NCBI GenBank assembly: GCA_020466095.1
Contig: CM035808.1
Location: forward strand, 8,518,012 to 8,582,011
DNA length: 64,000 bases
Reading direction: 5' to 3'
Source of the DNA: Chlorops oryzae
Taxonomy: Eukaryota; Arthropoda; Insecta; Diptera; Chloropidae
Below the pieces are notes generated by a model. It made no database searches. It saw nothing but the letters and a program-made list of their open reading frames with translations, and was not told the DNA's origin. Below are positions 16,382 through 60,155 of the stretch, piece by piece. Positions within the stretch are counted from its first letter, which is position 1. Each line of letters opens with the position of its first letter. The translations under genes were made by a program, and so were the position numbers.

Positions 16382-16435
16382 TTCTTCCGGCCAGACCTTG
16401 AAACAGTTCAAAAGCGTGCACGGTTCAGTGATCAT
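16382..16435 (-). CDS. Candidate alternative first coding exon, copy A
   Basis: On the minus strand an ATG at 16435 opens 18 codons, MITEPCTLLNCFKVWPEE, ending exactly at a donor (GAAGAA then GTGAGG, boundary 16381/16382), phase 0. The exon at 60102-60155 has the same length, start, donor position and 51 of 54 bases. The differences give F to C and V to L. Flanking DNA is much less alike, so the exon itself is constrained. I read these as homologous alternative first exons of one minus-strand gene, each with its own promoter to the right. The peptide is not recognised and has no evident signal sequence. Conserved non-coding DNA is the alternative reading: all three differences change amino acids and none is silent, which is odd for a coding exon under simple purifying selection. 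Confidence 0.55.
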
Positions 16436-16479
16436 ATGTATGTAGAATGACTGAGAAAGAAAAAAATAATAATAATAAA

Positions 16480-16810
16480 AGATAATGATTGCATCTTCAA
16501 GCTGGGGCTGAAATGATGGAGTTGGGTCTGATCTTCTATTTGTTTTTATCTTCTCGGTTAGTCTTTTGTTCTGTCTTTTTTTTTCGCATCTTTCATGTCG
16601 AGAGTCGAGCAGTATGAACCCATAATGGTTGTTAAGAGCAACTTTTTATATACACACAACACATATGTATGTTTATAGGTACATACTCGTACTTATAAAT
16701 GCCAAATGGAGCTAGAGAATCGCTTTGGGTATCTAACTGCAGTCGTTAAAAAAGAATAAACCGAGATCCGTCTGGCGAATCGCTCAAGCGTTAAGACCCA
16801 GACAGTTCTT
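16480..16810 (-). promoter_or_regulatory. Putative promoter/5' UTR of exon copy A
   Basis: Upstream of the 16382-16435 exon in minus-strand sense. Shared islands with 60200-60455, in the same order: AAGATAATGATTGCATCTT, GCATCTTYCATG, a CAGYATGAA string, and AAGCGTTAAGAC followed by CAG. The sequence between is diverged and interrupted by ATGTATG microsatellite. The promoter role is inferred from position relative to the exon; no clear TATA box was identified. Confidence 0.4.
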
Positions 16811-16819
16811 TAGTTTAAC

Positions 16820-17307
16820 ATTTTGTGGCCTTAAGTTGTTGAATTCCATGTTCTGTGTTCATGAATTTTCTGAGTTCGTGTTGCTCTTTTAATCACGATA
16901 TGGTTATATTTTACTTATTGAATTAAACTGGAAACTTATATCAGATTAGTGCAATAATTCCACTTTGTGAGATCTGAAGGACTTAAAGCTCTTACCAATT
17001 GTCTGAGAAGAATTTTCCCCACTTGCTAGCATGGTCTATAAACCGGTCGGGAGGATTCCCAAACCAAGGAAAATTTCTCTTTTGGGGCACCTTTGGGTAG
17101 ATTGTAAAACATTCTGAGCCGCCTATATCAATTCTTCCGTTCCCCTTTGAGATAATTTCTCTGCAGAGCTGTTAAGTCTAAACCTTCACTTTTCTCTAGA
17201 GGACGCTGTTGCCAATTTAGGGCAGTGATGCTAGTATTTGAGTACCATTTTTGCCCCGGATATTCAAAAAAAAAAACCCCCATTTGTTCCGTTTTCTATA
17301 GAAATAC
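16820..17307. other. Unique sequence, nothing recognised
   Basis: No gene. A CAGTGATGCTAGTATT string at 17224 resembles a hAT end but has no partner. Confidence 0.4.
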
Positions 17308-17647
17308 AGTAGACTCTCGTTAATTCGAAACTCGAGGAACCAAGGGCGTACCGAGAGAAAGAGTGCTTTGGTAGCGCTTATATTTGCCACTGTGGTATAT
17401 TGAGCAATTATAAGACATTAACCGAAAATAAAATTTTGGGCGGCAAGAAGAAGTTTAGAGAGTTTTGGACCAAAAACGTAAAAAATCCGAAAATGTCATG
17501 ACGTCCAATTTCGATGAAAATTTATATATAGAATAAGTGAAAAATTCTAAGAAATGTGGCAAAAAAACTGATTACAACTAGTCTAGTTTGGGTATAGTTC
17601 CAAACTGGTCCAAAAAGGACTAGTTGTAATCAGTTTTTTGAAAAAGT
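17308..17647 (+). mobile_element. Pogo-like end joined to a truncated hAT-type MITE
   Basis: A TA-flanked CAGTAGACTCTCGTTAATTC (17308-17340) is a pogo-like terminus. From 17341 the sequence follows the hAT-type MITE of 13590-13999 (GTATATTG, AAAATTTATATATAGAATAAG, the CTGATTACAACTAG inverted pair) until about 17647, where the right arm is lost. Diverged and defective. Confidence 0.75.
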
Positions 17648-18265
17648 TCTAGTGGGGGAACTTTTATTGGAACAAGTTCTTGTTTTCAGAGGGAATTTGA
17701 GGGAATTTTCGCCTTACTTTGAGACACATACCCCTGGTATATGAATGTCCTACAAAATTCTCAAAGTGTTCCAGGAAATGAGAAAAAAATTAAACATATT
17801 TTTCAGTCCTTTGACTTTTGGATAGCCCGTTGACCGTTTAAGGTCCCTGACCAAAAATAATCTGACAGGATTATACCTCCATGAAGACCTCAAAATAGTC
17901 ATACCTTTGAGTTCTAGTATTGACTAAAGCGCTCTAGCACGCGGAAATTCTGACCCTAGAAAACAAAATAATGGAATCAGCTGTGGCATGCCATGTAAAC
18001 GGAACTTCAATCCATGCCGCGGCGGGTAAAGAAGAACGAAATGGAGAAATAAAAAAAGAGAAGGCAACGATGCATATAACGTTAGACGCAAACCTCAACA
18101 ACCAAAAACGTGTTGCCGGCAGCAATTAATTTAAGCACCTGCCCACGTGTGTTGCTGAAAGAGGCTTGGGTAGGAAAGCGTAATTTTCAGTGTGAAGGAA
18201 AAATTAAGAAAAAGTCTAGCGTTGAGCTTTCCAATTAGAAAATCCATTTTCCGTTTGAATTTTTT
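17648..18265. other. Unique sequence, nothing recognised
   Basis: No supported gene or repeat in this interval. Confidence 0.4.
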
Positions 18266-18273
18266 TAAACGGC

Positions 18274-18428
18274 CAGTGCCGTAGCAACCATAGGGGAAAG
18301 AGGGGGCTTTGCCCCCCACTCATTTTTGTTTTTGCCCATGAATAAAATTGAAAAAATAATTTTTTCCCCCCACGCAAATTGGGAAAATAATTTTCCCCCT
18401 CACGCAAAACAGAATTGCTACGGCACTG
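18274..18428. mobile_element. hAT-type MITE (155 bp)
   Basis: Ends CAGTGCCGTAGCAA and TTGCTACGGCACTG. Exact 8-bp target duplication TAAACGGC (18266-18273 and 18429-18436). The interior has CCCCCCAC strings and is non-coding. Confidence 0.92.
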
Positions 18429-18436
18429 TAAACGGC

Positions 18437-19630
18437 GATAGTGACACAAGTGGGGATGGGGACAGGAATAATTTGATGTCGGTCATTTTTAGAGCAATTT
18501 GTTACATTTACTTTGGAGACGCTACAAATTTTCTATAAATATTGGAGAGATTCCCTGCAACATTTGTTCGAAAAAGAAATTTTTTCCCTTTCCATTTCGA
18601 TTCAATTTTTTTAAGTCCCTAAAGATGGTAAGCAGTTGGACACAATAGCACGAGCCAAACTCCATGCTCTTCTCTGTAAAAAAAAAAAAAAATATTCTCC
18701 CACGAAATCACCAAATCAACCGATGCGATACGAATGCCACATCTTTCTTAGCGGCCTTCTCAGGTGGATGACGCCATCCATGTTATGAAGATGCGCTTAA
18801 TTGATTGAATTCCATGGATGGAGTTGTTTATATTTACTTTCGAAATTTTTATTATAAACGTCTGAAAAGTGGTGGCGATGGCGACGAGGATGATGATGAT
18901 GACAAACGAAGTGATAAACGAGAATATTTGATATTGAATATATTGAGACGCATCTGTTTTGAAGGCAGCATGCTAAACATTTGCTTTCGCTCTCGTCAAT
19001 TTTTTTTAAGCAGTTATATTCATCTCTCGAACACAACGTGAACAAAAAAAAAAACAAAAACAAAAACAAAAATTCGACCCGAAACGGAGACTGCGAATCA
19101 ACTGTTTGCCTTGAAACTGAAGACGAACGAAGGCGAGAAGATTCATTAAATGTTGATATTGTAATTTAATAGTTTTATTTTCACTGTGTAATAGCTCCGA
19201 GAACAGAGAACAGATACACAGCGAATAAAGTTACCCACAGTCCATTTGATAAACACTTTTTTTAAAATATTTTTTTCATTTTTTTCTTCACATGACTGCA
19301 CCATTTTCACTGCTTCGAATCGGCCTTTTCGGCGCTTGTTTCGTGTTTATTTTGTCTACACGTGCCATTATTATTTTTGTTTCACATTAAACATTTCTGC
19401 ATTGATCAATAAAGTCATTTTGTCAGCCAAAACTCTTAAGGGCCGCTCCCTCGGAAACAATAAAAAATAAAAGCGACGAACAATTGTAGCTGAGAATGGG
19501 TTTGATTGAATTTTCTTGCGGTAAAAAAGTGGGATTTATTTTCATCGCCCATTCGTAGCGTTAGCTTTTGAATTTTATTTTATTTTGTTTTTTCTCATCT
19601 TAAAAGGAATTTTAAGTTTAATGGATGTTT
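18437..19630. other. Unique sequence, nothing recognised
   Basis: AT-rich DNA with a GATGATGATGAC patch at 18880-18905 and AAAAACAAAAAC at 19045-19070. Open frames here are short and low-complexity. Confidence 0.4.
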
Positions 19631-20421
19631 TTTTTTTTTTTGGAATAGTATGGACCAAAGATTTCTTGTAGCTCATTCCATTCCATTCTTCTCTCATTCT
19701 ATTGTCCATTTTTATACCCGGCACATGAGTAAGAACAAGTTCGAGAATGGACCCGATCGGACAATTTTTAGGGGTACCTCCAGTACTAGGGTCTGTTACG
19801 AAAATCACAAAAACTGCTCTTAAATCGAAGTTTTTCAAGATATTTTCGTGAAATTTGATAGTTCAACATATTTGAAGTCAAGTTATTCAATATCCAAAAA
19901 TTGGAAAAGTGGGCGTGGCCGAAAGGCGTTTTTCTAAAATGGCTTCCTGCACCCAAAATTCAAATGGGAATTGAACGAAATTTGGCTGTTATGCTTCCTT
20001 TGTAGCCATAGACATCCTCTCCAAAAATTTTGATAGGTCCATTATTAAGGGTACCTCCAGTACTAGGGTCTGTCACAAAAATCTCAAAACTGCCCCAAAT
20101 ACGGATTTTTTTGAGACATTCCACTGAAACTTAGAATTTCAGCGTATATTAAGGCCTCCGATTAGCAAAAAAAAAAAGGAAAAGTGGGCGTGGCAAAAGG
20201 GCGGTTTTCATAAAGAAATTAAACAAAAGCCGGTATATGGGGCCCCTAATGGCTTTAAACACCTCTTGATATTAAAAATTATTTGAACATGTGTGTCTGT
20301 GTCGGGTATTTTATTGTCAGGCTCGCCTGACTATAACACCCTTACTTGTTTTTTTTTTGGAATAGTATGGACCAAAGATTGCTTGTAGCTCATTACATTG
20401 TCCATTCTTTTTTCATTTTTG
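19631..20421. mobile_element. Mini-me-like retroelement copy with internal and flanking duplications
   Basis: The core 19709-20350 begins TTTTTATACCCGGCACATG and ends GTCAGGCTCGCCTGACTATA then ACACCCTTACTTG, matching a mini-me-like 3' end also seen at 54960-55020. Inside, a unit of about 275 bp is repeated in tandem (GGTACCTCCAGTACTAGGGT at about 19775 and 20051, each followed by AAAAGTGGGCGTGGC). About 60 bp of host sequence (GGAATAGTATGGACCAAAGA and on) flanks both sides (19643 on and 20358 on). Non-coding. Confidence 0.6.
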
Positions 20422-20825
20422 GATAGCTGAGATATTTAAAAATATCGTGCTAAAAGGATTTTTTTTAAATTCCGAAATAGCTTAGAAGGTATAACCTTCT
20501 TTGTTGAGTAAGATTTGCGCTAAAACGAGTAATTTTAGCGTTGCTTCAAACCTTAAACGCATTTATCTCGAAACCACAATTTTTGAACTAGCGGCGACGA
20601 TTTCTCCAGTTCAACTGAACCGATTTTAATGAAACAAAGACGCAAAATTGTCACCATTACGGCGGGAAGCTCACTCTCAATTTTAACAAATTTATTACTA
20701 TTTTTTACACTGAAAAAAAAATGTACCCGAAATGGATTGGTCAGTATTCAATGGCCGCCATTTTGTAAAAAAAATATTCGCAAAATAATTTTCGAGCTCC
20801 CGGCCATTATGACATCTAAACTGAT

Positions 20826-22055
20826 CAGGCGCGCAGCCAGGGGGGGCTTTTGGGGGTTCAAACCCCCCCCCAAATTAAGGAAAAAATACACGACACAGCT
20901 TACATTTCTACATCGCCGTCCTACAAACTCTTTTATTAAGTTTTATGATGCAATAATTTTAGTTCTTGACCGAATTTCCTCTTGGAATGATCAAAATGTG
21001 TCAAGTCAGTCTAATTTATTAAAATGTGCCTTACAAAAAGGCGAATTTCTTATATCTCTTCATTGTATAAATCAAGTTTTTAGTTACACATTTGTTCTAT
21101 GTAAATATTTACAAGGTAGAAACATTGATCTCAAATATGCTGTTGTCCTAGCAGATATATGCTTAGAGAATATTCAAACCTTAAGAAGTAACGCTGAGGA
21201 AGAATTTCAGAAATTGTTTAAAAACGCTGAGAAGCAAGCTTTATCAAGCGGACTTATTTTGAAAAAACCTAGGCTCGCACATTCTCAGGACCACGAAGCA
21301 CATTTTCATACTAAAAGTGTTGAATATTATTATCGTATTTCCCTTTATTTACCTTTTGTGGATGCATTTATTGTCAACTTAACCAATCGCTTTTCAAAAC
21401 ACAAGGATATTCTTCTTGGTTTTCAAGTTTTATTTCCTCAAAGCGATACTGCAAAAGTTGATGATTTTTTAGACAAATTTAAAAAACTCTTTCAGTTTTA
21501 TCAAGATGATTTAGAGGGATATTTTGATGATTCAAAAATGGAGCTCACTATTTGGTATAAATTAATTAATAATTTAGAAAAAAATGAAAGACCAAAAACA
21601 GTGTTTGACGCTATAAAATTTTGTAAAAAAGATATTTTACCAACTATTTTTATTTTATTAACTATTTTGGCTACTCTTCCAATAACCACATGTGAAAATG
21701 AGAGTTCGTTTTCAACTCTCCGCCGACTCAAAACTTATCTTAGATCTACAATGACAGAACAGAGGTTAAATGCCTTAGCACTCCTCTACGTCCATCGAGA
21801 TCTTACTCCCAGTGTAGAGGACATACTAAATAAACTTGCTGAAAGCAAGCGCAGACTTAACATTGCACTTTAAATTGAATAAGTTCCTTCGAAAATACTT
21901 TTTTTTACTTTGTACACCTTATAAAAATGTAAAATATTTATGTAAATATATTTTAATTATATATTTTGTAAGCTTTTTACGAAAATAAAAATAAAAAATA
22001 TTTAGAAAAATTTTCTGCGAACCCCCCCCAAATTGAAATCCTGGCTGCGCGCCTG
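20826..22055 (+). mobile_element. hAT element, internally deleted (1230 bp), perfect TSD
   Basis: Terminal inverted repeats CAGGCGCGCAGCCAGG / CCTGGCTGCGCGCCTG are flanked by an exact 8-bp duplication AAACTGAT (20818-20825 and 22056-22063). Just inside both ends are C/G runs (CCCCCCCCAAATT). At 1.2 kb it is about half the length of an autonomous hAT, and the N-terminal half of the transposase is missing. A solo 3' end of the same family is at 13162-13313. Confidence 0.95.
20904..21873 (+). pseudogene. hAT transposase C-terminal half (DUF4371/ZMYM1-like)
   Basis: About 320 residues, open to the stop at 21871-21873. It resembles the C-terminal half of hAT transposases of the DUF4371 / zinc-finger MYM-type 1-like group: a helical SSWNDQNVSSQSN-like segment, a long AEEEFQKLFKNAEKQA coiled region, then the hAT dimerisation motif CENESSFSTLRRLKTYLRS followed by MTEQRLNALALL. 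The BED finger and first catalytic aspartates are absent, so it cannot transpose alone. An upstream in-frame ATG at 20629 would add about 65 residues, but these are translated from the older MITE, not from transposase. Dimerisation with a full transposase is conceivable. Confidence 0.85.
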
Positions 22056-22233
22056 AAACTGATTATAATAACGTTTTTGTTTTGCATAACGTACAACTTG
22101 GAGACGAGGAATCGTGGTCACCAGCACTACACCTTTTTTGGGGGGTTCCCCGTTTTGACGGCTGAGAACTTTTAGAACCGCCCTCACAAAAGTGCTTTTT
22201 TTTTACTAAATTTTTTAAATTTTGAACACAATA

Positions 22234-22402
22234 GGGGTATTCACGAAGGCGTGTTAAAAAACGCTGCAACTTCGGAAAATCGGAAAATTGCGACTTCTTA
22301 AAAAATTTTTAAACTTTTTTTGTAATTTGCACAAATTTCTAAACAGTTAAAATTTTCTAGTTTTCCGACTTTCCTATTTTCCGACGCCTTTGTGAATACC
22401 CC
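22234..22402. mobile_element. TA-flanked MITE, copy 1 (169 bp)
   Basis: Ends GGGGTATTCACGAAGGCGT and ACGCCTTTGTGAATACCCC are inverted and flanked by TA. The interior has CGGAAAATCGGAAAAT and its inverse. A second copy is at 22694-22844. Confidence 0.87.
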
Positions 22403-22585
22403 TAATAAAAAAAAATTAAAATGCTCTTTTGGTTTTCGGTAAGGAATTTAAAAAAAAAATGGTCCAACAACTTCGTGAAGGAGACAACCCCCTAAAATTA
22501 ACTTTAGCTAATCATCCTTATGACCATAAATTTCCTTTCTAGACCAACGCTTAGTCCAAATGGCAATTGAGAAACCAAATGTAAG

Positions 22586-23534
22586 CAGTGCTCGGACTTG
22601 AAATTTTTTAAAGGTGGTAGATTTTTAAAGAATAAGTGGTAGATATTTTTAAAAAGTGGTAGACTTGAAATTGTTTCATATAGTAATACGATAGGGTAAT
22701 TCACAAAGGCGTGTTAAAGACGTTGGAAAATCGGAAAATCGGAAAAATCTGACTTCTTAACAATTTTTTAAACTTTTTTGTACCTTGCACAACTCTTTAA
22801 GCCGTTAAAATTTTCCGATTTTCCGACGCCTTTGTTCATACCCCTAATTTTTTTAGAACCTATCTGCGTATTTATGTGTAGAAAAAGTAAAAATAAATTT
22901 AAGTCTATCGGTATCCAGTGCTCGGACTTGAAAATTTTTTAAGGTGGTAGATTTTTAAAAAAGTGGTAGATTTTTATAAAAAGTGGTATATTTTTATATA
23001 AAAAATGATAGATTTAAAATTTGTTTAAAATGATAATACAAATCGATCGGTATCCACTGTTCCGACTTGAAAATTTTTAAAGGTGGTAGATTTTTAAAGA
23101 ACAAGTGGTAGATTTTTAAAGAACAAGTGGTAGATTTTTATTTAAAAAATGGTAGATTTAAAATTTGTTTAAAATGATAATACATTATATCACATCTGAT
23201 AATGTAGAAAATTTGGAAACTTACGTTTTTAGGTATTTTCTCTTATTATAAAAATATGTTCCAATATTTATTGGATGCCGTTAAGCGTCAATACTGCCAT
23301 TCTTGACAACATTCTTGACAATAGGAAGCTGCCAACATATTTTTCAATAACACATAATATTGAAGCACATTTTTTGTGTTCTCATTTATTCTAATGATCA
23401 TAAAATAAATAAAACAAATGCATAAATAAGTAAAAAAAAAAAAAAGTGGTAGATTTGGACCTAGCGTGGTAGAAGTGGTAGAATGTGAAAATAGTGGTAG
23501 ATCTACCACTAAAGTGGTAGAAGTCCGAGCACTG
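22586..23534. mobile_element. hAT-type composite with GTGGTAGATTTTT repeats (949 bp)
   Basis: Ends CAGTGCTCGGACTT / AAGTCCGAGCACTG, exact 8-bp duplication AATGTAAG (22578-22585 and 23535-23542). The interior is a minisatellite of roughly 15-22-bp units built on GTGGTAGATTTTTAAA. The 5' terminus is repeated inside at about 22917 and 23056. A TA-flanked MITE (22694-22844) is nested in it. No transposase. Confidence 0.93.
22694..22844. mobile_element. TA-flanked MITE, copy 2, nested (151 bp)
   Basis: GGGTAATTCACAAAGGCGTG ... ACGCCTTTGTTCATACCCC, flanked by TA. Same family as 22234-22402. Lies inside the hAT-type composite 22586-23534. Confidence 0.85.
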
Positions 23535-23542
23535 AATGTAAG

Positions 23543-24586
23543 TCTCCTTTTGGGACATTCCCAGAAGATCTGATTACACCAGAGATCCAAAAAACTTTTT
23601 CCACTCATTTCTTTGAGAGTACATATGAACCTACAACCGTCATTGGTTTCCATTCCGAAATGGGCAGATTTCTAAGAAAAAGTCTCCGAACAAAAAACAA
23701 AAAAAAAGCACCTTGCATGCAAGGAACGAAAACGAAAGTCGTCCCCACAGTCGTTCATTATAGTTTTAACACCTTCTCTTTCTAATGTTGCACTGTTCTG
23801 TGCTCATAAATCTAAAATTATAGGTATACCTATTTATCAGCCTGAGTTTTCATACATATCTACATAGGTACACGAAAAATTGTTGCAAAGCTTGACTCAT
23901 TCGTGGGGGGGATGTAATTATTGAGTGCTAGGGAATATGTATTTAAATACCTATATATTCATATGACAATTTATGTTTATGAAAACGATGAGGAGTGCAG
24001 GGGGCAACTATAATTATCGATAATCACAATTACATGTATTATTCTTATGCATGTAGCTTTGGACTTTCGTAATATTATATTTCTTTGTGTCATTCACCTG
24101 AAATATTTTGCATTTGTCACGACACAGATACTGGCTTTTATTGGTATATTTTGTTGTTGTTGTTCTTATTTTTCTTCTTCTTTTTTGGAATCACAATGCA
24201 ACAAAGTGATGATCATGCAGTCAAAATATGCTATCGGATATGTTTTTCTGGACAACTCAGACGTATTTTGTGATTCTTTTCCAACTTTTTTCATCGGAAT
24301 ATATACATATGTATGTACGTGTATATATGTAAACACATACATATATTCATTTTTCTTTTTATCATTTCTTATGAAGTTTTTCTTACTCTCTTTTTGCGTT
24401 TTTAGACATAATTTTTGTTTAAGATTTCATGCGCGGAAAAAAAATCTTGACTGGAAAAATTTTGTAACATCCGCTTTGATTTTTTATCATTTTACTACAA
24501 AACTGACACAATTCATGCTATAATAAAATATTTTATGTAGCTTTAAAGCTATCCGTTCATAGCAGGGGTCTTCCTTTAAACGTGTA
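23543..24586. other. Unique AT-rich sequence
   Basis: No supported gene. A 158-codon plus-strand frame (24047-24523) is Phe/Cys/Ser-rich low-complexity translation of T-rich DNA. Contains a TACATATGTATGTACGTG microsatellite near 24305. Confidence 0.45.
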
Positions 24587-24594
24587 TTTGCCTC

Positions 24595-24759
24595 CAGTGG
24601 CGTAGCAAGACGTTTCGTCGCCCGGGGTCCGATGGAGGGCACAATGCAAGAAATGCCGCCCGCTCCAACCGGCCTCAGTAAAAATACCTTCATAAAAATT
24701 GAAATATGATTTGGCGCCCGAGGCGGCTGCCCCCTTCTCGCCCCCTCACTGCGCTACTG
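24595..24759. mobile_element. hAT-type MITE (165 bp)
   Basis: Ends CAGTGGCGTAGC and GCGCTACTG, exact 8-bp target duplication TTTGCCTC (24587-24594 and 24760-24767). GC-rich interior (CGCCCGGGG, GCCCGAGGCGGC), non-coding. Confidence 0.92.
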
Positions 24760-24891
24760 TTTGCCTCGAAAACTTCGAAAACTCGTAAATCGAGAAGGCT
24801 TAGAAATTAATGAACGAAGTTTTGTATGAAAAATTTTACATTTTTCCGCTTTTTCGATCTTTTCACGTTCAAGGGAAGACCCCTAGTATTA

Positions 24892-25403: not shown

Positions 25404-25426
25404 TAGACGTATACGCAGAATATTAA

Positions 25427-27624: not shown

Positions 27625-27632
27625 GTGCAAAG

Positions 27633-32170: not shown

Positions 32171-32180
32171 AACTCTTTAA

Positions 32181-32914
32181 GGGGGTCTTCTCATTGAAAA
32201 CCCGTTTTTTGGACCCTTTTTAAAAAAATTCTTATTTGAAAACGCAAAGAATAATTGAAAACTTTTTTTATTTATTGTATTACAAAAGGTTCAAAGTAAA
32301 AAAAAAATTTTTTTTGCCTCGATACGTGGGCTGTTCAAAAAGTAATGAGACTTCAAAGTTGGTGGTGAAAAAAAAGGTGCCGTCACGGCGGCCACGATTC
32401 CGGGTCTCCGGAGCGTCCGAAATGGAAAAAAAAAAACGGGGTTATAATCAGTATAGATGTAATTCTCGGGTGAACCTCAAGCTTAATTTTGTGATTTTTT
32501 TTGACAAAATGGCGGCCATTCAAAAAAAAATTTCAATTTCGAGCTTTTTTTTTGTAGTTTAGTGTAAAAAAAAAATAGTAAAAAATTTTTTAAAATTATG
32601 GTCGAGGTTCACCCGAGAATGGTGACAATTCTGCGTCGATTCCACTTTGTTTCATGAAAATCGGTTCAGTTGAACTGGAGATATCATGGCCGCCAGTTCG
32701 AAAAACGTGGTTTCGAGATAAACGCGTTTAAAGTTTGAAGCAACGCAAAAATTACTCGTTTTAGCGCAGATCTTGCTCGACAAAGAAGTCTATATCCTCT
32801 AAACTATTTCGAATTTCAAAAAATCCTTTTAGGGGCATATTCACAACTACCCAAGCTATAAATAAATGCAAAAAAAAAAAGTCGAAAAAAAAGTTGCTCA
32901 ATGAGAAGACCCCC
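32181..32914 (+). mobile_element. TTAA-flanked MITE, copy 2 (734 bp)
   Basis: Same termini as copy 1, TTAA at 32177-32180 and 32915-32918. Differs from the other copies mainly in homopolymer lengths. It lies only about 110 bp downstream of the candidate exon donor at 33025, i.e. within the presumed intron. Confidence 0.92.
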
Positions 32915-33024
32915 TTAAGATTGAGTCACTTCCCGGTCACAGAATGAGGCCATCTTAGCTTGCGGAATGAACTGTTAAAAGAGGTCACAGTCACCTCTAT
33001 TTATTTTTTTAAAAAACTACTCAC

Positions 33025-37874: not shown

Positions 37875-39318
37875 ATGTGTCTTAGCGATGTCCATTTCTC
37901 TAGTGCACTAGGTACTACAATACTGTCATTAGTCATTACTAGAAAAATGTCCAAAAATTATTAAAACTGCGTTAAAGTCTACAAATTAATGCATCTGAAA
38001 AATATTCTCAAAACCTTTTTAATGCTCTACACTTCACAATTATTGCAGTAGGGAATACTTTTTTCTTCGTTTTTTTAATGTGTAGTTTTCTTGTGGCATC
38101 CATAAAAACGATCGTCGCAGTCGAAAAGATCAATCGATTCGTATAAAATAAATTTCAATGGAAATAAACAAACGAAAATCATTGCTCATTTACGTGATTC
38201 AAATACTGAATTTCGAAATAAACAAATTAAATGAGCATTTCGAAAGCTTTCAACAAAATTGAACCTGAGATAGATGTGTCTCTATCATTAAGTTTTATCG
38301 ATCGACGAGCATCTGTGCACGGGCATGATTTACGATCGAAGCTCATCTTTCGGTAGCACATTTCACATGCATTCATTTCCACATTTGTGGGAATCGCCGC
38401 AATAAAATCAAATTGTTGAAAAAAAAAAAATTAAATAAAAAAAAAAAAAAATAAATAAATACAACGGAGAAGAAATTATTTACTACCGAAACGTGAGGAT
38501 GCCAAAATGTAACTGTCTTTGATTAATTTGTTATTCCGAACTTGTCAAAGCCGAGTGCCCATGATGCAATTATGTACATGATCAAGCCATGATCTTCAGT
38601 GTCAACCATTGTGCGTACGTTTGTACGATCACATCCTGAAAGAGGTCAAAATTTTTTTTTTTGTTTTCGTGTTTTTTATTTTTTTATTTTATTTTTTTTG
38701 TGTCTTTTGTTTTCTCGCCTTTTCGTACATCTCTGTTTGGCCCTTTTGTGATCGTCTTCAATGATTTTCAGATTCATTGTGTTTTCCGATCAGGTGCGCA
38801 TTCGTGAAACATGAAACCCCGGCCTGAATGCATGATGTGGCTTCTGCGTATCATTGTCACACAATTCGATTACCTTTCTTTCTCACTTATTGATCTTTTG
38901 TTATGAGACTTAAGCATCCTTTCGGGTCTATTGCACACGCATCCTGAGGAAGTCAAGTGGTTAATTGTTTCCGATTAAAGAGAAGGTATCTTTTTCTTGG
39001 GAATAAATGCGGCTTACCAACGTCGAAGAAGATTTCTTGGTACCATAACATCGATTGAAAGCAAAGGGGATCAGTTGATCTACCAAAAGTTGTAAAGAGT
39101 GATACTGGAAAATTGTTCTGTTTAGATTTTTAAGGTGTTAAAGATTGCTTAACAGAATCTCTACAGGATGATGGACAACATAGTTTCTTTTATATAGACT
39201 ATGGTTAATGAAACTTATTTCTTTTCGATTGACTTCTGATTGAAGTCCACTGATTGAGCCTTTAATTTAGAGAGTCAAAGTTTGAAGCACAACAAATCAC
39301 AGCCATTCAGAGGCCAGC
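37875..39318. other. Unique sequence with less AT-rich islands
   Basis: 38560-38640 and 38760-38960 are information-rich (CATGATCAAGCCATGATC, CGGCCTGAATGCATGATGTG) between poly-A/T tracts, suggestive of conserved non-coding sequence. A weak minus-strand exon candidate (39018-39051) has a donor GTTG then GTAAGC. Confidence 0.35.
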
Positions 39319-39322
39319 TTAA

Positions 39323-40061
39323 GGGGGTCTTCTCATTGAGCAACTTTTTTTTCGACTTTTTTTTTTTTTTGCATTTATTTATAGCTTGGGTAGTTGTGAA
39401 TATGCCCCTAAAAGGATTTTTTGAAATTCGAAATAGTTTAGAGGATATAGCCTTCTTTGTCGAGCAAGATCTGCGCTAAAACGAGTAATTTTTGCGTTGC
39501 TTCAAACTTTAAACGCGTTTATCTCGAAACCACGTTTTTCGAACTGGCGGCCATGATATCTCCAGTTCAACTGAACCGATTTTCATGAAACAAAGTGGAA
39601 TCGACGCAGAATTGTCACCATTCTCGGGTGAACCTCGACCATAATTTTAAAAAATTTTTTACTATTTTTTTTTTACACTAAACTACAAAAAAAAGCCCGA
39701 AATTGAAATTTTTTTTTGAATGGCCGCCATTTTGTCAAAAAAAAATCACAAAATTAAGCTTGAGGTTCACCCGAGAATTACATCTATACTGATTATAACC
39801 CCGTTTTTTTTTTCCATTTCGGACGCTCCGGAGACCCGGAATCGTGGCCGCCGTGACGGCACCTTTTTTTTTCACCACCAACTTTGAAGTCTCATTACTT
39901 TTTGAACAGCCCACGTATCGAGGCAAAAAAAATTTTTTTTATTTACTTTGAACCTTTTGTAATACAATAAATAAAAAAAGTTTTCAATTATTCTTTGCGT
40001 TTTCAAATAAGAATTTTTTTAAAAAGGGTCCAAAAAACGGGTTTTCAATGAGAAGACCCCC
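39323..40061 (-). mobile_element. TTAA-flanked MITE, copy 3 (739 bp), reverse
   Basis: Same family in the opposite orientation, TTAA at 39319-39322 and 40062-40065. Nearly identical to copies 1, 2 and 4. Confidence 0.92.
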
Positions 40062-40065
40062 TTAA

Positions 40066-44245: not shown

Positions 44246-44312
44246 GAATGAAATTGATATTCGAACGCAATTCAATGTAAAATCAGTTATCCTCATCTTA
44301 GGCATGATCTGG
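44246..44312 (-). repeat. Duplicated block paired with 47963-48030
   Basis: Shares GAATGAAATYGATATTCGAA and AGTTATCCTC then TCTTAGGCATG with 47963-48030. The minus strand reads ATGCCTAAGATGAGGATAAC (MPKMRITDFTLN), but the donor present in the partner is lost here (TTGCGT). A TTAA element has inserted immediately to the right. Confidence 0.6.
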
Positions 44313-44316
44313 TTAA

Positions 44317-45047
44317 GGGGGTCTTCTCATTGAAAACCCGTTTTTTTGACCCTTTTTAAAAAAATTCTTATTTGAAAACGCAAAGAATAATTGAAAACTT
44401 TTTTTATTTATTGTATTACAAAAGGTTCAAAGTAAATAAAAAAAATTTTTTTGCCTCGATACGTGGGCTGTTCAAAAAGTAATGAGACTTCAAAGTTGGT
44501 GGTGAAAAAAAAGGTGCCGTCACGGCGGCCACGATTCCGGGTCTCCGGAGCGTCCGAAATGGAAAAAAAAACGGGGTTATAATCAGTATAGATGTAATTC
44601 TCGGGTGAACCTCAAGCTTAATTTTGTGATTTTTTTTGACAAAATGGCGGCCGTTCAAAAAAAAATTTCAATTTCGGGCTTTTTTTTGTAGTTTAGTGTA
44701 AAAAAAAAATAGTAAAAATTTTTTTAAAATTATGGTCGAGGTTCACCCGAGAATGGTGACAATTCTGCGTCGATTCCACTTTGTTTCATGAAAATCGGTT
44801 CAGTTGAACTGGAGATATCATGGCCGCCAGTTCGAAAAACGTGGTTTCGAGATAAACGCGTTTAAAGTTTGAAGCAACGCAAAAATTACTCGTTTTAGCG
44901 CAGATCTTGCTCGACAAAGAAGGCTATATCCTCTAAACTATTTCGAATTTCAAAAAATCCTTTTAGGGGCATATTCACAACTACCCAAGCTATAAATAAA
45001 TGCAAAAAAAAAAGTCGAAAAAAAAGTTGCTCAATGAGAAGACCCCC
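44317..45047 (+). mobile_element. TTAA-flanked MITE, copy 4 (731 bp)
   Basis: TTAA at 44313-44316 and 45048-45051; termini and body as copies 1-3. Confidence 0.92.
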
Positions 45048-45051
45048 TTAA

Positions 45052-46178
45052 GTTCGTTTCTTGGTATTACTTAATTAAAAATTTTTGATCAGTTTTTGTC
45101 TCTGCCTATTTGGAGTGGAGAAATCAAACATATTCTTTCATTGAATTTATTCAATCAAAAAGGTCTTATCTTTAATCACCCTGTCAGGCTGTCTCTATCC
45201 ATCTCATGGTCAACCTCTTCGAAGAACCTCGAACAACCTTCGTTCACATGCATAGCGATCGGTTCAATAAAAAAAAAAAAAAAAAAAAATAAAAACAGCT
45301 ACTGAATGGCTGCGCAAATCACACCTTAATCAGACTGGAAGACAGCGTGATCAGCCAGCGAGTGTGCTTGACTATGCATTTTAATTAAAAACAAAAAAAA
45401 AATTGTTTCTTTCGATTTCCATTTTGATTCTCATTTTCGATCTGAATAAATACATTCAAAATGCCGTTTCGGTCATTTTCCTCTCGAATGAAGAAAACAA
45501 CGGATCATTTAAGCGTCTGCATATTGATATGATTTGTATATATGTATGTATATAATTGTGAACGTATACCTACATTCATACATGCGCAATAGGCTCGAAT
45601 ATCTCCCTGAACAGAGGCCAAACTAATTTGCATACATCAGCAATGCAGTGGACTCATTTGGACGACGCGCTCGCTATCGCTATCGCTATCGGTTCAACCG
45701 TCACAAGCACATTGCTTCATTAAATCGACATGTTTACACCATTCGAAATTCGTTATTCGAATAATTCAATCGCATGAAACATATTTACCAATAGAGGCTT
45801 TTTCCTACCTACACGCGAGACATATTTACATGCATTTACATTTACACGGATGTGTTAAGTTGTAACGAAATAATGTCGCAACTAACACGAACAGAAAATT
45901 TCGGTTTTATTACCTTAGATGTTTGGCATTCGAAAACCGAAAAAAAAACTATCTTTTTAGCTTTAAAGTCCCATGCGACTTACCTATTGAACACGGGTGA
46001 ATTCCCTCACGGAAGTAAGTTTTATTGTTGGATTAGAAAGCGAAGAATTGAATTCAATAAAATTATAACTGAAATCCCTAGGCGATTTATACCGAATATG
46101 TGCTCTATGAGGGTAGATCTTCCCACTGAAAGATGGTCTGAACTGTGACCGCCTTAATTTAGCTGGCTCAATATACAT
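45052..46178. other. Unique sequence, nothing firmly coding
   Basis: A 98-codon plus-strand frame (45852-46148) and an overlapping 64-codon minus-strand frame both lack recognisable features. Contains CGCTATCGCTATCGCTATCG (45670-45690) and an ATGTATGTATAT microsatellite. Confidence 0.35.
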
Positions 46179-52320: not shown

Positions 52321-52483
52321 GTAGAGCTCAGATTTTGAATTTTTTTGAATTATTTGAATTTATTGAATATATTGAATTTTTTTAATTTTTTTTGCATTTA
52401 ACTGTGCTTTTTGTATATTTTATTCACTGAAGTAGGCTTTTTTTTGTTAACTTTAAAATTCAACATTTTAAAAGGCATACTAA

Positions 52484-52707
52484 GGGTCGTAGTCTTCGAC
52501 TCGGTTTAAGCGCTTCGAATGTTTAAATTCTCTAATATATTCCCTTAGTCTTCATGCCAGTTTAAGTCAAAAAAATACTTTGGCTGTATTTGAAATTTTA
52601 AAAAATTTTCATATAAAATTAATAAACCTAGTTTAAACTCTCCTGAAGACTATCATTTGAAAGTTTAAACCTTCAAATAGTTTAAACTAGGTTGGAGACT
52701 ATGAGCC
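52484..52707. mobile_element. PIF/Harbinger-like MITE 1 (224 bp), TAA target
   Basis: Ends GGGTCGTAGTCTTC and GGAGACTATGAGCC (imperfect inverted repeats) with TAA on both sides (52481-52483 and 52708-52710). An internal CTAGTTTAAACT / AGTTTAAACTAG pair is palindromic. Three-base TWA targets and GG-ends fit PIF/Harbinger. Confidence 0.75.
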
Positions 52708-52710
52708 TAA

Positions 52711-52846
52711 GGGCCGTTTTCTCATCCTACTTTTAAGCTCTATCTGCCAGTTAAATTTCAATTTCTTTGACTTATTAATCAAATTTGTATGAAATTATCA
52801 TCAGGATAACTTAACTTACAGATAAAAAAAGATGAGAAAACGGCCC
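52711..52846. mobile_element. PIF/Harbinger-like MITE 2 (136 bp), TAA target
   Basis: Perfect inverted ends GGGCCGTTTTCTCATC / GATGAGAAAACGGCCC, TAA on both sides (52708-52710 and 52847-52849). Shares its left TAA with MITE 1. Confidence 0.9.
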
Positions 52847-53176
52847 TAAATCGAACTAATTTAGAATTTTCGACTGTGAATTTTTTTGAATATTTTGAAT
52901 TTTTTTTTGAATTTTGTTTGAATTTTTTAAAATTTTTTTAAAATTTTTTTTAATATTTTGAATTTTTGGAAATTTGTTTAAATTTTTTTTAAATTTTTTT
53001 TTGAATTTTTTTGAATTTTTTGAATTTTTTGAATTTTTTTGAATATTCTTTGAATCTTTTCTTTAATTTAAAAAATTTTTTTTTCAATATTCAAATTCCG
53101 AGTCATACTTATAAGTATTTTTAGAAAAATTTTTTTAGTTTCTTACCTTGTGATTACGTTGGGCATCCAATTCCAT

Positions 53177-53664
53177 CGAACGATCGCAATCTCGCTTATC
53201 TTTTGGGATTTTTTGAAGGCTTTATGAAGATGTTTATCATTTTATTTCTTTGTGATTTCTTAAGTTGAAAGCTGAGAGAAAAGCACACCGGAAATAACAG
53301 TTTTATTTTATGGGTTTAGGCATGGGATTTGAGAGCACGAAATTAGAATAATTTTTTTTTTTTTTCCATTACGTTATCTTGAAAGACCTTTTAATCGATT
53401 TATGATGGTGTCGATAAGTTTTGGTTTCGCTGCAAATTTTGGTAACGTTCGATAAGAAATTACAAGTATTATCTTAAATGTATTAAGAGAAGACTATCTA
53501 TTGTGGAAATAGAAATTCTTAAGATTTGCAACTGTTTCTGTTTTCAGACATTTCCATCCAAGTCTGATACTGCAATCAAACTTCTATGGATCGAATTCAG
53601 GCTCTAATTTCTGGCGCCTCAAACAAATTACCAAAAAAAAAAAAATATTTTAATATTCGTGATT
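53177..53664. other. Unique sequence; weak exon candidate at its left edge
   Basis: Just left of this interval, a minus-strand ATG at 53176 opens MELDAQRNHK and meets GTAAGA at 53146/53147, phase 0; a stop lies 22 codons upstream. No conservation evidence, so not called as CDS. Confidence 0.35.
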
Positions 53665-53676
53665 CTATAGCCGAAG

Positions 53677-54269
53677 TAGGTATGTATGTATGTATATTGC
53701 AGTGGATGCCACTTCCCAGCAGTTATTTGTAACCGATGGTAATGCAAAAAGTAATTCAAAAGGCGTACTTTTACAGAATCGATTATTTTTAACACGGCGA
53801 TGTCGTAGCGAATGTAATGCATGCTTATTTGCATAACCAATTGTACGAAAAGTAATCGAAAATACTTGATTTTGTAATGCATTACTATTTGCATTCTCAA
53901 GTAATGCTATAGAAGTATGTAACGCTCTGCTTTGGGAGTGTGAACATATTAAGCAACACATTACCTTTTCGATTACCTTTCCATGCAAATTTGTTCAATT
54001 TACTTTGCATTCCTATTTCATCGATGAAAAAATGCATTACTTTGGTAATGTACTTCCTAAATAACTGCTAGGTTAGGCCGTATACCGGGCCCGTTGTGAT
54101 ACCACGAGAGGTCTTTCTTGTGTTTGTAGTGTGCCCCTAACATGCGATTTTTTGAAAAACCAATGCGAGGCTTGGAATATTACACTCTGTTTCGCCTGTG
54201 CCGGGAATCGAACCTCGGACAATGGGATCAAGAGCATAGCACGCATCCCCTACGCTACCCCAGAGCCAC
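53677..54269 (-). mobile_element. tRNA-headed SINE with LINE-derived tail, foldback nested inside
   Basis: Minus strand: head with GGGGTAGCGTAGGGGATGCG (A box) and CGAGGTTCGATTCCCGGC (B box), body GAGTGTAATATTCCAAGCC and CGCATGTTAGGGGCACAC, tail GTGGTATCACAACGGGCC, ending in CATACATA repeats. An exact 12-bp target duplication CTATAGCCGAAG flanks it (53665-53676 and 54270-54281). A foldback element (53715-54072) interrupts the tail at CCTAA/GTGG. The tail string matches the LINE 3' UTR at about 6747. Confidence 0.85.
53715..54072. mobile_element. Foldback element nested in the SINE (about 358 bp)
   Basis: CCCAGCAGTTATTTG ... AAATAACTGCTAGG with many GTAATGCATTAC-type palindromic strings. The flanking SINE sequence rejoins as CCTAAGTGG, the order found in the LINE and in the SINE at 61.6 kb. 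Confidence 0.75.
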
Positions 54270-54283
54270 CTATAGCCGAAGAA

Positions 54284-55370
54284 ATTTATCTGAACTTTTT
54301 TGGGGGGCAAATATTGGCATTAGAGGGTTAAAGTTTTTCCAAAAATTTTGTTAACCTGTGGAGATTTTAATTTGAAGAATTTTATGTAAAGTTTTATTGT
54401 TAGCCGAGAGCTTGACTGTCGGATGACGAACTTGGCATACAGTGAGTGAAAAAATTTAACGTACACACCTACTTTTAAAGCAAACACTTGCTGCTATTTA
54501 GGTTAAATAAACAAAATTAAATGTTTTTCTTTAACCATAAAATACTATCTTTCCTCAAATAAAAGGTAACCTTGAAAAAAAAATTTAAAAAAATACGAAA
54601 ACATTCGAAGGGGAAGCCAGTAATGAGTCATTATTTTCGCTTTAACCCATATAATTTCATCCTTTTGTTCTCGATAAAAGATGTCTAAAAGTTTTTGCTT
54701 TCGTTGTTGTTGTTTTTGTTGTTGTTGTTGTAACGATCATTCTTCACATCGTGAAAACCCAAAGATGTGTCATTGTAACGGAACAGGAAAACGTGATCAA
54801 ATTCAAAGTCTCGCACCTCATTATTTCCATGCGATTCTGAGTGGAAAATTTATTTGGAGTATTTATGCCCGACACACTCTGTGTCGAGGGAATATTGCGT
54901 TTGTGTGGTTGTGTGTAACACCCAGAATCAGTCGGAATGGAAAACATATTTAGCTAACCCATCGCCTGTGTCGGGTATCGTATTGTCAGGTTCGCCTGAC
55001 TATAACACCCTTACTTGTTTCTAACTGCATTCATTCAGACCTCATCCCGGTATCAAGTCTCCTCGATTCTTTCGAATTTGGTAAGCTTCTCAGACAAAAG
55101 TAGGTACGTAAGTTGTAAGCTTTTGAAGCTACCCGCGTAAGACGATATTCCAAAAGATTATTTCTTATCGCTCGAGAAGTGAAAAGCTCAGAAGCTTAAC
55201 GAACTGGTCGCGAAACTGCTTAGATGCGCAAATATCGATCGACACGTGCATTTTGTCGGCATGGGCCTTTTGAGACTTTATGATCTGCTTAAATCTCTTT
55301 ATACTATAGGTATAGGTACCTGCCTCGAATCAGTATTTAGTCATTCTTTCAGATAAGTAAGTGCAGTCAA
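54284..55370. other. Unique sequence with a mini-me-like 3' end
   Basis: 54956-55020 (GTGTCGGGTATCGTATTGTC, CGCCTGACTATAACACCC, TTACTTGTTT) matches the 3' end at 20300-20350. No gene recognised. Confidence 0.45.
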
Positions 55371-56260
55371 GAGCAGAAGGGGAAATCGAAGCTCTTGAAA
55401 AAAAAGAAAAACGATCGGGGATATTTTAAAAGGAAATTGGGGATATTATTAAGACAATCAATAAATAAAATGATTGCAAGTTTTTTACCCGGTTATATCT
55501 GACCACAACGTGGACGTTTATCGATATCTTTACTATTGCTATAGAGACGAAATATTTTGTAATTGTTTGAACGATTTTAAATATTTTAGACCATTAGATA
55601 TCCCTCATTAATATTGCTATGGAACATTTTGACAAATCTCTGAACATCAAGATAAAGAGAGTAGGATACGGAGAGAGGAAGAGAACGGTGGAGAGAGAAG
55701 AAGTTTAGAAAAAGGAGGCAAGAGCAGAAGGGGAAATCGAAGCTCTTGAGAAAAAGGAAAAACGATGGGGAAGTTTTAAAAGGAAATTGGGGATATTATT
55801 AGGACAGATCAATAAATAGAGAGAAGGATTGCAAGTTGGATATTTGGTAATTAAAGTGGACGATTATAAATTTAGACATATAGAGACGAAATATTGATGG
55901 AACGATTTTCAATATTAGAACATAGATAAAGGAGAGATAAGGAGAGAGGAGAGAGGTGAGAGAAGAAGATAGAAGGAGAGGGAAGGATAGATAAGGAGGA
56001 AGAAGGAGAGAAGGAGAGAGAAGAGAGAAGAAGGAAGGAAAGAGAAGGAAAGAGAAGGAGAGAAGAAAGAAGAGGAAGAGAAAGGAGATGAAAGAGAGAA
56101 AGAGAGAAGAGAGAGAAGAGAGAGAGAGAGAGAGAGAAGAGAGATGAAAGAGAAAAAGAGGGATGGTAGAGGGAAGGAGAGAGAAGGAGGGTGAAGGAAG
56201 GAATGGAAGAAAGAGTGAGTGAGATATTATTTACAGGGGGAGAGAGAAAAGGTAAAAAAA
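55371..56260. repeat. Direct duplication grading into a polypurine tract
   Basis: 55371-55590 and 55722-55930 share AGAGCAGAAGGGGAAATCGA, AAAAGGAAATTGGGGATATT and GAACGATTTT. After 55920 the plus strand is GA/GGA-rich to about 56245. Confidence 0.85.
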
Positions 56261-56815
56261 AAATTTTTTTTAAACTTCTTAACCTGGTTTTTCGAAAATT
56301 TTTATTGATTTTTGAACACTACTTTCTTCTGAGACGGTACGAAGCTCGCCGAATTTGGTTGTTGTTGTCAGCACTAGTTTCTTTAACTTTTTTTAAGACT
56401 ACAGTGAAACCACAATAGCTCAGAATATTCAGCAACTTGAACTTTTCTTTTCCGTTTAAAATTAATTGTGTACCTTCTTGTTTCAAGTCTTAATTAAAAA
56501 TTTTTTTATTAGTACGAGCAATTGTGAGTTCACTGTACATTTACCGTTTTATCACTCTCAAAATGACTTTCGAATCAATTTTCTCAGAAATCTATATAAA
56601 AGTTTCGAGATAAAGTTGCGATTACTATGGACTATGAAGCGTAATCTAAAGACTTAGATTCTTTGGAATATTTTTGGACGTTTAAGATTGTCCAGGCTGA
56701 GCTTTTGGGCTTTAACACTGCTTGCAGCTATAAATCTAACTGGTTCTTTAATATTTATTGCAACTTAAACACATATATGTATATTTTTTTCCAGTGGTTT
56801 GAAAATAACTTATAA

Positions 56816-57797
56816 AAGGGTCTGGCGGGTTAAGCAAAGGCATGCGGCATCATGAAAGGAATTTTTAAATTTTGTTGATTTTTCGATAGGTGCCATCTAA
56901 AAACACTGTGGAGATTACTTTTTAGATTTTTATTATGAACGGTCCTTGAAATATCCTTGAAAATCCTCTTTTATTAGGTTTTTTTCAAAATTTTATATCT
57001 CAAAAACTAATTACGATAAGAAGATGAAACAAACGTTGGGCAATTGCCAATATAACAGGAAATCAAAAAAATTTTTAAAAATTTTTTACACTGAGAAAAA
57101 TTTTCCCACGAAACTAAAAAGATAATTTTAACATTTTTTTTCAGTGCATTCCCAGTTTGTCGCCACTCTACAAATTTTTTTAAAAATACCTCTAAGTATT
57201 TTGCTTTTCATTTAAAAAAAAGTTTAATTCAAATTCAATGGAGCAACAGTGAGATATTCAAAAAATTACAAGTGCACATAGATGCTCTAGTACTAATATC
57301 CAGTACAAATGTGCGAAAATGATACAAAACACATTACTCATACGGCATGTTTTTAAAAAATTAAGTATCTCCAGAAATAATTAAAATAAAAAGATGAAAC
57401 AAACGGTGACTTATTGTTAATAAAACAAGGTATTTTTTTAAAACATTCAAAAGGTTTTACAAAAAACTGAAATACACTGAAAAAAATTGTTAAAATTATA
57501 TTTTTAGTTTTGTGCAAAAATTTTCTCAGTGTAAAAATTAAAAAAATTTTTTTTTTTATTTCCTGTTATATTAGCAATCGGCCAACGTTTGTTTCATCTT
57601 CTTATCTTAATTAGTTTTTGAGATATAAAATTTTGAAAAAAGCTTATTGAAGAAGGATTTTCAAGGATATTTCAAGGACCGTTCATAATAAAAATCTAAA
57701 AAGTAGTCTCCACAGTGTTTTTAGATGGCACCTATCGAAAAATCAACAAAATTTAAAAATTCCTTTCATGATGCCGCAACCCGCCAGACCCTTTATG
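56816..57797. mobile_element. Large foldback/inverted-repeat element (about 980 bp)
   Basis: Arms of about 280 bp: AAAGGGTCTGGCGGGTTAAG ... and ... AACCCGCCAGACCCTTT. Each arm includes CATCATGAAAGGAATTTT, GGTGCCATCTAAAAACACTG and GATGAAACAAACGTTG or complements. The spacer (57120-57510) contains weaker repeats of the arm motif GATGAAACAAACGG. Confidence 0.85.
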
Positions 57798-58370
57798 TCT
57801 ATGAATCTCTCCAAAACTTCTGGTGGACCAGGCATTGAAGTTATTAGGAAAAATTTATATTTTTCCACGTGCTTTAACAAAGTATTTAAACACTTTTTAT
57901 ACTATATATTCTCCCAAACGAATCTACCTTGTCGAAACAGCATTAGGTGTAAATATACAAGGTGCCTATAACTTCTGAAATTCCCCCACACAAAAAAGTG
58001 ACTCATAAAAAGTCGATACATTCAATTGAACAATATGAACAATATGGGTGATTGGAGTGTTTGAATACTGACGCATCGACTTTTTTCCCACTTAAGATCA
58101 AATCTTTTAAAGCGATGAAATCAATAAATCCCAGGCATTAATGTCGACTCCCTTCGCGAACGAAAATGCCAATCAAATGCACTCATAAACCAGTAAACAG
58201 CAAAAAACAACAAACCATCAAGCATGTGTGTATGTATGTATGTCTGTAACTTACACACGTATTCACCAGTTTATGAAGCTGAATAAAAGAAATGAAACTG
58301 CTGAAAGCCCGCATCCGAAGTTGAATTAAATCTCAGCACAACAGAAAGCGAGCACCCAAGCACCGAATGA
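57798..58370. other. Unique sequence, nothing recognised
   Basis: No gene or element ends supported. Confidence 0.4.
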
Positions 58371-58374
58371 ATAA

Positions 58375-58555
58375 AAAGATTGATTGTATATCTCTGCGCA
58401 GGCGCAGACACAGACACAGCAGCAGGCGAACAGCGCGATGGCGTCTTTGTTGTCGTCGTAGGCGATGCGGGCGAACGAAATCCAAACATTCATTCGATGT
58501 ATGAATGTGCTCCCCGTTGCTATTTTTAACCGCAATCACAGCCATCATCCAGCAG
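58375..58555 (-). promoter_or_regulatory. Conserved block paired with 15640-15830
   Basis: Contains AAGATTGATTGTATATC, TCTGCGCAGGCGCAG, GATGCGGG, CGCAATCACAGCCATCAT. Lies about 1.5 kb downstream (minus sense) of the exon 60102-60155. Enhancer function inferred. Confidence 0.45.
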
Positions 58556-59239
58556 CCATATTGTGAGATCTACCGCGGCAGGGCATTGGAAGACGCCCAT
58601 AATTTAAATCACTCGAGCACTTGAGTAACGAACGAGTCGTGACCGAAGCTGTTGGACTTCTTTGTGAAAAATTGTGTGTAATTTTTTTTTTTCCATTTTT
58701 AAGTTGGAATTCTGATTCATTTTTACAGGGTGTGATGATCATTATATTGTTGGGTGTCTTTCGTATTGTGAAAGTATAACGAATAAATTGGTGAAATCTT
58801 TAACAACTCTTAAGTGGAAAAGATGATGGGCTCCATCAAAAATGGAAAAATGATGATTTCACCTATTTCCCCCCCAACTAAATTTATTGCTTTCTAAAGA
58901 TGCCTTATGAGAAACTATTGGACCAGTAAATTGCCATCGCAGCTTGTCTTCTAAGTAGCAATAATTTCATGCTCCCGATGATAACCGGCGACATAAAAAA
59001 AAAAAAAAATCATCACAATCTCAAGCAGGGCCGCTAAAAGCTTCTATTAGGGCCTAATGATGTTTCTCTTTATGATTTTCATAACCTGCTGGATCATAAA
59101 CTCTAGAGAAATAAGATTGCTATGGGATGATTTCGCCACTGCACTGATTTCCAGTAAACGGCCGGAGAGCCGGCAAGACCGATAACAGATGACATGATCC
59201 AGGATCGGAATGTCTGCAGAAGGTTGCTGAGATCACATA

Positions 59240-59509
59240 CACTGAGCGAACTTTACCTTTTTTTAAAAATGCGCATTGTTATTCACAGTCCTTTTGATTT
59301 TCGAGCAGAACGAACATTTTAAAAGGAAATAGGTTTAATTACATTTCTTTTCGTTCGGTATAATTCTCATTTGTTTTATAAAATAGGAAATATAAGACAT
59401 TTATTCATCTTAGAACTTTTTTTTAAAATAAAAATATTCCTTGTTGAAGACGTTTTGTATGTTTTTCCTTTGATTTAATTAGTTTTCTGGTTGATTTTTT
59501 TCTCTGTGT
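59240..59509 (+). mobile_element. CACTGAG/CTCTGTG MITE, copy 4, internally deleted
   Basis: TA-flanked CACTGAGCGAACTTTACC to GATTTTTTTCTCTGTG; the core (hairpin region) is deleted after TTATTCATCTTAGAAC. Confidence 0.82.
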
Positions 59510-60101
59510 ACCCTTTACCTCAAAAAGAGCTTGTGCGAAACCGAAAAGATTTCAAAATAGGTTTAAGGAAAAGAAGAAGGAAGAAGATTTCCTCATAGTA
59601 AGATCATTCTCAAGGGGCCCAGGCATTTGAAAGTGTGCTCAGAATTGCTTAATAGCTGGCGAAATTTTTATTTGGTATTGGTATTGGTCCCCTTTACTAG
59701 CTTTTGGGGAAAATTTCCAAAATTGTTGGACCTGCTTAAACCCAGATTTTTTCAATGGCTCTCGGTAATTTTTCGAATCATCCGGCGGGCGGGCCCCTCA
59801 AACGAATTCGCTTGGAGCATCGGCATTAACTTTTCTTCGGCCCTGTAACTAGCAAAAGTCTGTCAAGCCATTTAATCATTCATTCAAAGAAATGATTGGC
59901 TATAGAAAATCGTAAAGTACAGCATTAATAAAAATAAAAGCTCCGACTCCCCCTGCTCCACTCTTCAGTCTCAATTGTCTCCACGAACCGAACGAATACT
60001 CTTAATAAATGATCACGCACGCTTCGTCTGACATGAATACGACTTGTACAAACGAGAGCGTCTCCCCATTTTGGTATGGTACATGCAGCTATGGTACTCA
60101 C
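59510..60101. other. Presumed intronic sequence
   Basis: No element ends or exon. The string CAAAGAAATGATTGGCT (59884-59900) has an echo at 16228-16241, extending the paralogy with the 16-kb region. Confidence 0.4.
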
Positions 60102-60155
60102 TTCTTCCGGCCAGACCTTGAAACAGTTCAAAACCGTAAACGGTTCAGTGATCAT
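60102..60155 (-). CDS. Candidate alternative first coding exon, copy B
   Basis: Minus-strand ATG at 60155 opens MITEPFTVLNCFKVWPEE and stops at a consensus donor (GAAGAA then GTGAGTACC, boundary 60101/60102), phase 0. Near-identical to 16382-16435 in an otherwise diverged context. Its donor is a better match to consensus than copy A, so this may be the more used copy. Transcription would start to its right, where conserved islands lie (60200-60455). The gene family is not recognised. Purely non-coding conservation cannot be excluded. Confidence 0.58.

Follow-up and report, generated by a model that had tools for sequence, protein, structure and literature searches.

What do two near-identical stretches of 18 codons, each opening on an ATG and running straight into a splice donor, contribute to the gene upstream of which they lie? 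The question arises in a window of 64,000 nucleotides from the fly Chlorops oryzae (contig CM035808.1, referred to below as C3, positions 8518012-8582011; the window is the whole stretch analyzed), which belongs to an assembly of 442 Mb in 1,044 contigs. A preliminary description had taken the pair for duplicated alternative first exons under their own promoters, giving one protein two N-termini. On balance, we read the two places as paralogous units of promoter and leader exon belonging to the gene pebbled, each with a 21-codon upstream open reading frame (uORF), and not as alternative N-termini.

The arrangement from ATG to donor, in phase 0 on the minus strand, reads as it had been described. 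The parts, all read directly, are as follows, in window coordinates:

16382..16435, minus strand: copy 1, open reading frame (ORF) part of putative leader exon 1, MITEPCTLLNCFKVWPEE
16376..16381, minus strand: copy 1, predicted splice donor GTGAGG
60102..60155, minus strand: copy 2, ORF part of putative leader exon 1, MITEPFTVLNCFKVWPEE
60096..60101, minus strand: copy 2, predicted splice donor GTGAGT

Both copies are ATG-led open stretches of 18 codons. They agree at 51 of 54 bases, a figure that our recount reproduces, and at 16 of 18 residues, and their exon-donor boundaries (GAA/GTGAGG in copy 1 and GAA/GTGAGT in copy 2) share the same phase. Two codons account for the three base differences, TGC/TTT at codon 6 (two bases) and CTT/GTT, and codon positions 1, 2, and 3 are each affected once. 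The third-base C/T difference at codon 6 is silent, whichever the order of change; the earlier count of three replacements and no silent change was mistaken, and the inference drawn from zero silent changes falls with it. Nucleotide constraint or gene conversion may be acting on the pair. The 54 bp are closer between the copies than is the proximal 5′ flank (P = 8e-4 for at most three mismatches, a post hoc test), and informative third positions are unchanged at 15 of 16, which is weak evidence (P = 0.095). Selection acting on the 18-codon peptide is not demonstrated by comparing two copies. We rejected structured RNA as a candidate: the 54 nucleotides fold no better than their shuffles (z = 0.41 and 0.37), and the window holds no Rfam match at gathering scores.

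How far the duplication reaches bears directly on what was duplicated. When the window is compared with itself by BLAST, 16371-16535 pairs with 60091-60256 over 169 columns at 80% identity, with an expectation value (E) of 5e-36, so the likeness of the exon pair is not due to chance. Within the first 120 bases 5′ of the ATG, 86 of 111 aligned bases are identical (77%), with 18 further gap columns. The upstream likeness is patchy and reaches about 300-370 bp before the ATG, with the following parts:

16478..16497, minus strand: copy 1, identical 20-bp block AAGATGCAATCATTATCTTT from the copy alignment, with an upstream ATG (MQSLS...)
60200..60219, minus strand: copy 2, counterpart of the 20-bp block in the same alignment, AAGATGCAATCATTATCTTT
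16436..16602, minus strand: copy 1, similar proximal 5′ side (approximate limits), with the shared block CATGRAAGATGC and an ATG at 16596
60156..60365, minus strand: copy 2, similar proximal 5′ side (approximate limits), with an ATG at 60359 and a GA-rich insertion
16778..16801, minus strand: copy 1, distal upstream block CTGGGTCTTAACGCTTGAGCGATT, 21 of 24 bases common to both copies
60433..60456, minus strand: copy 2, distal upstream block CTGTGTCTTAACGCTTCAACGATT

The 24-bp distal block is 343-366 bp away from the ATG on the 5′ side in copy 1, and in copy 2 the distance is 278-301 bp; none of 300 shuffles attained its score of 33 (the best shuffles of the two tests scored 31 and 27). Further upstream we find no significant likeness (6 of 100 shuffles reach the score), and on the downstream, intron side none beyond chance (61 of 300 shuffles reach the best local score). 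The gap-free block of high identity starts at the ATG, after a two-base gap, and stops five bases past the end of the exon. Thus the flanking DNA, said earlier to have largely diverged, has done so downstream, but on the 5′ side part of the likeness is kept. Likeness on the 5′ side but not on the 3′ side is the pattern that an old duplication of a promoter with its first exon would leave. As a separate observation, at 60433-60456 on the minus strand of copy 2, TTAACGCTT is closely followed by its inverted copy AAGCGTTAA; in copy 1 we did not see this inverted second half beside the corresponding block.

A search of the fly's own genome with the 21-residue query, in which only the best candidates are scored, so that a third copy might escape it if far diverged, returned three places: copy 1, copy 2, and C612:5226-5285. 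The last is on a contig of 10.5 kb whose examined part is 95.8% identical to the surroundings of copy 1 over 3,157 columns and matches the exon without a mismatch. Judged from this identity, the contig is most simply a haplotig (the other haplotype) of the copy 1 region, and as such it speaks independently against copy 1 being an artefact of assembly. We rejected an origin of the pair in a repeat family, since the genome search found two places and the haplotig, and the other listed matches involve only the GA-rich insert. The 20 kb above the window (5,000 bases of it N) contain no third copy of the exon (best match 6 of 18 residues); the same 20 kb hold one open frame of 120 amino acids, on the plus strand. 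The degenerate DNA pattern of the peptide was not found in viral and prokaryote contigs, as expected, and the peptide has no match in the PDB.

Below the window we examined 200 kb, which are read throughout except for 7,500 bases situated beyond pebbled. Two long open frames lie below copy 1 on the same strand, at C3:8504717-8505526 and 8499780-8504234. Residues 200-700 of the second (ORF L012:1769-6223, minus strand) retrieved 464 relatives, the best with E = 6.4e-172. Among the best 120 of these, the closest, at 51-58% identity, include pebbled/RREB1 proteins of Teleopsis (58%), tephritids, Glossina, and Musca, those of Glossina and Musca bearing the name 'zinc finger protein pebbled'. Because the search matches RREB1/pebbled proteins, we identify the downstream gene by homology as pebbled/hindsight, the fly homologue of RREB1, which encodes a C2H2 zinc-finger protein. 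It is the first recognisable gene on the same strand below copy 1, 29 kb away. We take CG12212 to be its gene number. The gene has ties to Notch and JNK. PMC6945037 links pebbled/hindsight, a developmental regulator, with EGFR signalling.

The relatives also indicate where the protein begins. Of the 23 that we compared (P0001-P0022 and P0044), 16 begin ML... and two MI...; the other five comprise four protein pieces and one sand fly protein beginning MKRQL. The comparable start of Pebbled in C. oryzae, MLSTQMATDVK..., sits in exon 2. None of the best 120 of the 464 Pebbled/RREB1 relatives contains MITEP, KVWPEE, EPFTVLN, or NCFKVWPEE with at most one error, although gene predictors favour the longest frame.

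Acceptors were ranked with a home-made score for pyrimidines and AG, not a trained splice model, and for direct joins only. The acceptor of exon 2 is the pyrimidine-rich ...GTTGCAG/ATGAAATATTAA at C3:8505563, 88 nucleotides before the Pebbled ATG. The interval from copy 1 to pebbled has 1,390 AGs, among which this one ranks third by one score and fourth by another. Forty of the 1,390 score at least 3, and none of the 40 leads directly in frame into Pebbled; in-frame junctions arise at weak sites only. Joined to C3:8505563, either copy reads MITEP...WPEE-MKY-stop, a frame of 21 codons that is not the Pebbled frame. Relative to the predicted junction its ATG is at -54 and its stop at +9, with the main ATG at +88, so that in both copies 142 nucleotides separate the MITEP ATG from the main ATG; the uORF closes before the Pebbled start, and 76 nucleotides follow it. 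Of the preliminary description, then, duplicated first exons under their own promoters are the best model, at the level of prediction, given the upstream similarity, the common strand, and the good donors. The two N-termini are not supported: the Pebbled start is in exon 2, the best exon 2 acceptor brings a stop after three codons (the result on which we rejected N-terminal coding exons as the principal interpretation), and the peptide motifs are missing from the relatives searched.

The leaders contain other upstream ATGs as well, one of them within the identical 20-bp block (window positions 16494 and 60216, minus strand). In copy 1 the frame that it opens, MQSLS..., has a TGA stop overlapping the start codon of MITEP; in copy 2 its stop lies further on. 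The contexts of the MITEP starts, ACATATG and ATCCATG, have no purine at -3; by the fly start consensus they are weak, and the Pebbled start, CAAAATG, fits.

As leader units of pebbled, the two places would have arisen by an old local duplication of a promoter and its leader exon. The sequence itself shows the two copies with their donors, the likeness upstream, which genes follow and in what order, the acceptor, and the reading frames; we infer that both leaders are transcribed, spliced, and translated and that they have a regulatory effect. Each unit would be transcribed on the minus strand and is predicted to be spliced to the common exon 2 of pebbled (C3:8505563, some 12 kb below the window) across an intron of 28,829 nucleotides from copy 1 or 72,549 from copy 2. 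In the spliced RNA the conserved 18 codons would go on through MKY to a stop, making the 21-codon uORF, and ribosomes engaged on it would lower or condition the translation of Pebbled. The protein could still be made by leaky scanning past the weak start contexts or by re-initiation across the following 76 nucleotides. With the uORF in both leaders, the same control would apply from either promoter.

Several observations weigh against these leader units, and some of them feed other explanations. The acceptors at C3:8531472 and 8506943 outscore C3:8505563, as does 8532906 in the second scoring, and other or additional leader exons are therefore possible; the interval from copy 1 to pebbled also holds, on their strand, nine open stretches of at least 90 amino acids, which may include exons. 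The two exons could thus serve as leaders, whether of pebbled or of a noncoding RNA, that are spliced to exons we did not recognise in the 29 kb preceding pebbled, with the 18 codons ending in some other short frame, as when a join to 8506943 leaves the frame open for 48 more codons. We consider this doubtful, though the most probable of the rivals: the higher-scoring sites are without other support and may be the chance matches of a simple pyrimidine score in 29 kb, and a Pfam search with the nine stretches gave no match above the cut-off. The longest of the nine, 181 amino acids at C3:8517696-8518238 (minus strand), extends into window positions 1-227 and has no Pfam match. The two copies also differ by two amino-acid replacements and one silent change, and a protein search with a 52-residue piece running into the intron found no relative of the peptide. 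Differences spread over codon positions 1, 2, and 3 amount to conservation without a bias to silent sites, and more conserved blocks stand upstream of the frame, as would be the case if the 54 bp owed their conservation chiefly to a role in DNA or RNA, be it as core promoter, enhancer, or splicing element, with the frame incidental. That the gap-free block of high identity spans ATG to donor and that no RNA structure was detected in it make such an element unlikely.

A weak acceptor at C3:8505502 speaks against the leader units in another way, by joining the exons in frame into Pebbled (MITEP...WPEE-ISLLIQRIK-MLSTQ...), open for 262 codons, and four still weaker AGs further in (8505442, 8505439, 8505370, and 8505343) would do so too. 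Two alternative N-termini for Pebbled could be produced along such a route. With a score of 0.3 at C3:8505502 against 7.0 for the site 61 nucleotides upstream, and with the peptide motifs found in none of the relatives named above, we hold this to be very unlikely. Least probable of all, and barely credible to us, is a gene-conversion tract that holds the exon similar without selection; identity does climb to 94% in the exon, against about 77% in the proximal 5′ flank, but a tract would not be expected to end at the ATG and the donor, and the separate blocks of 20 and 24 bp would be left unexplained.

If the two places are leader units of pebbled, a further step may be ventured, tentatively: the uORF may act through its peptide and be important enough to have stayed nearly unchanged in both duplicated leaders, giving two promoters and one translational brake. 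Were this true, translation of a developmental transcription factor would be controlled by a short leader frame kept through the duplication of its promoter, and comparing the paralogous copies would be a natural way to tell whether conservation acts on the peptide or on the nucleotides. The case would also show that an exon running from ATG to donor can resemble an alternative N-terminus while being part of a 5′ leader.

The window and its neighbourhood hold other features. Ten chosen ORFs of the 96 with at least 80 amino acids in the window were searched against Pfam, and only one gave a match above the curated cut-off, a frame of 428 amino acids at 20587-21873 (plus strand) that matches the C-terminal dimerisation region of hAT transposases (PF05699, E = 5.6e-11). 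An element of about 745 bp is present in four copies about 98% identical (11216-11960, 32175-32918, 39318-40065, inverted, and 44305-45052), with a distant relative at 20405-20825 (about 77%); from the identity of its copies it is probably a young mobile element. The window contains no tRNA genes. Outside it, neighbouring open frames at C3:8451659 and 8459780 (plus strand) resemble, by eye from their translations, catalytic subunits of calcineurin A.

In the literature searched, no paper joins hindsight/pebbled with uORFs and Drosophila. Term counts and passages in PMC2276209, PMC7530721, PMC4528330, PMC6945037, PMC4613772, PMC6070289, and PMC4568590 revealed no pebbled uORF or duplicated pebbled leader, although supplementary uORF lists may hold one, and Pebbled, hindsight, peb, hnt, and CG12212 have no occurrences in the main text of PMC2276209. 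Three known systems nevertheless bear comparison. The downstream gene matches pebbled/hindsight of flies, the RREB1 homologue. As with alternative first exons under alternative promoters, there are two promoter-side units and one predicted common acceptor; unlike them, the units here are paralogous copies and probably do not encode an N-terminus. There is also a likeness to the conserved peptide uORFs of Drosophila, which are described by Hayden and Bosco (2008; PMC2276209) as short leader frames upstream of, and separate from, the main ORF, an arrangement that is predicted here. In contrast to those, the frame at pebbled is present twice, once in each putative leader exon, would continue across a splice junction, and would encode a peptide known from two copies in one genome.

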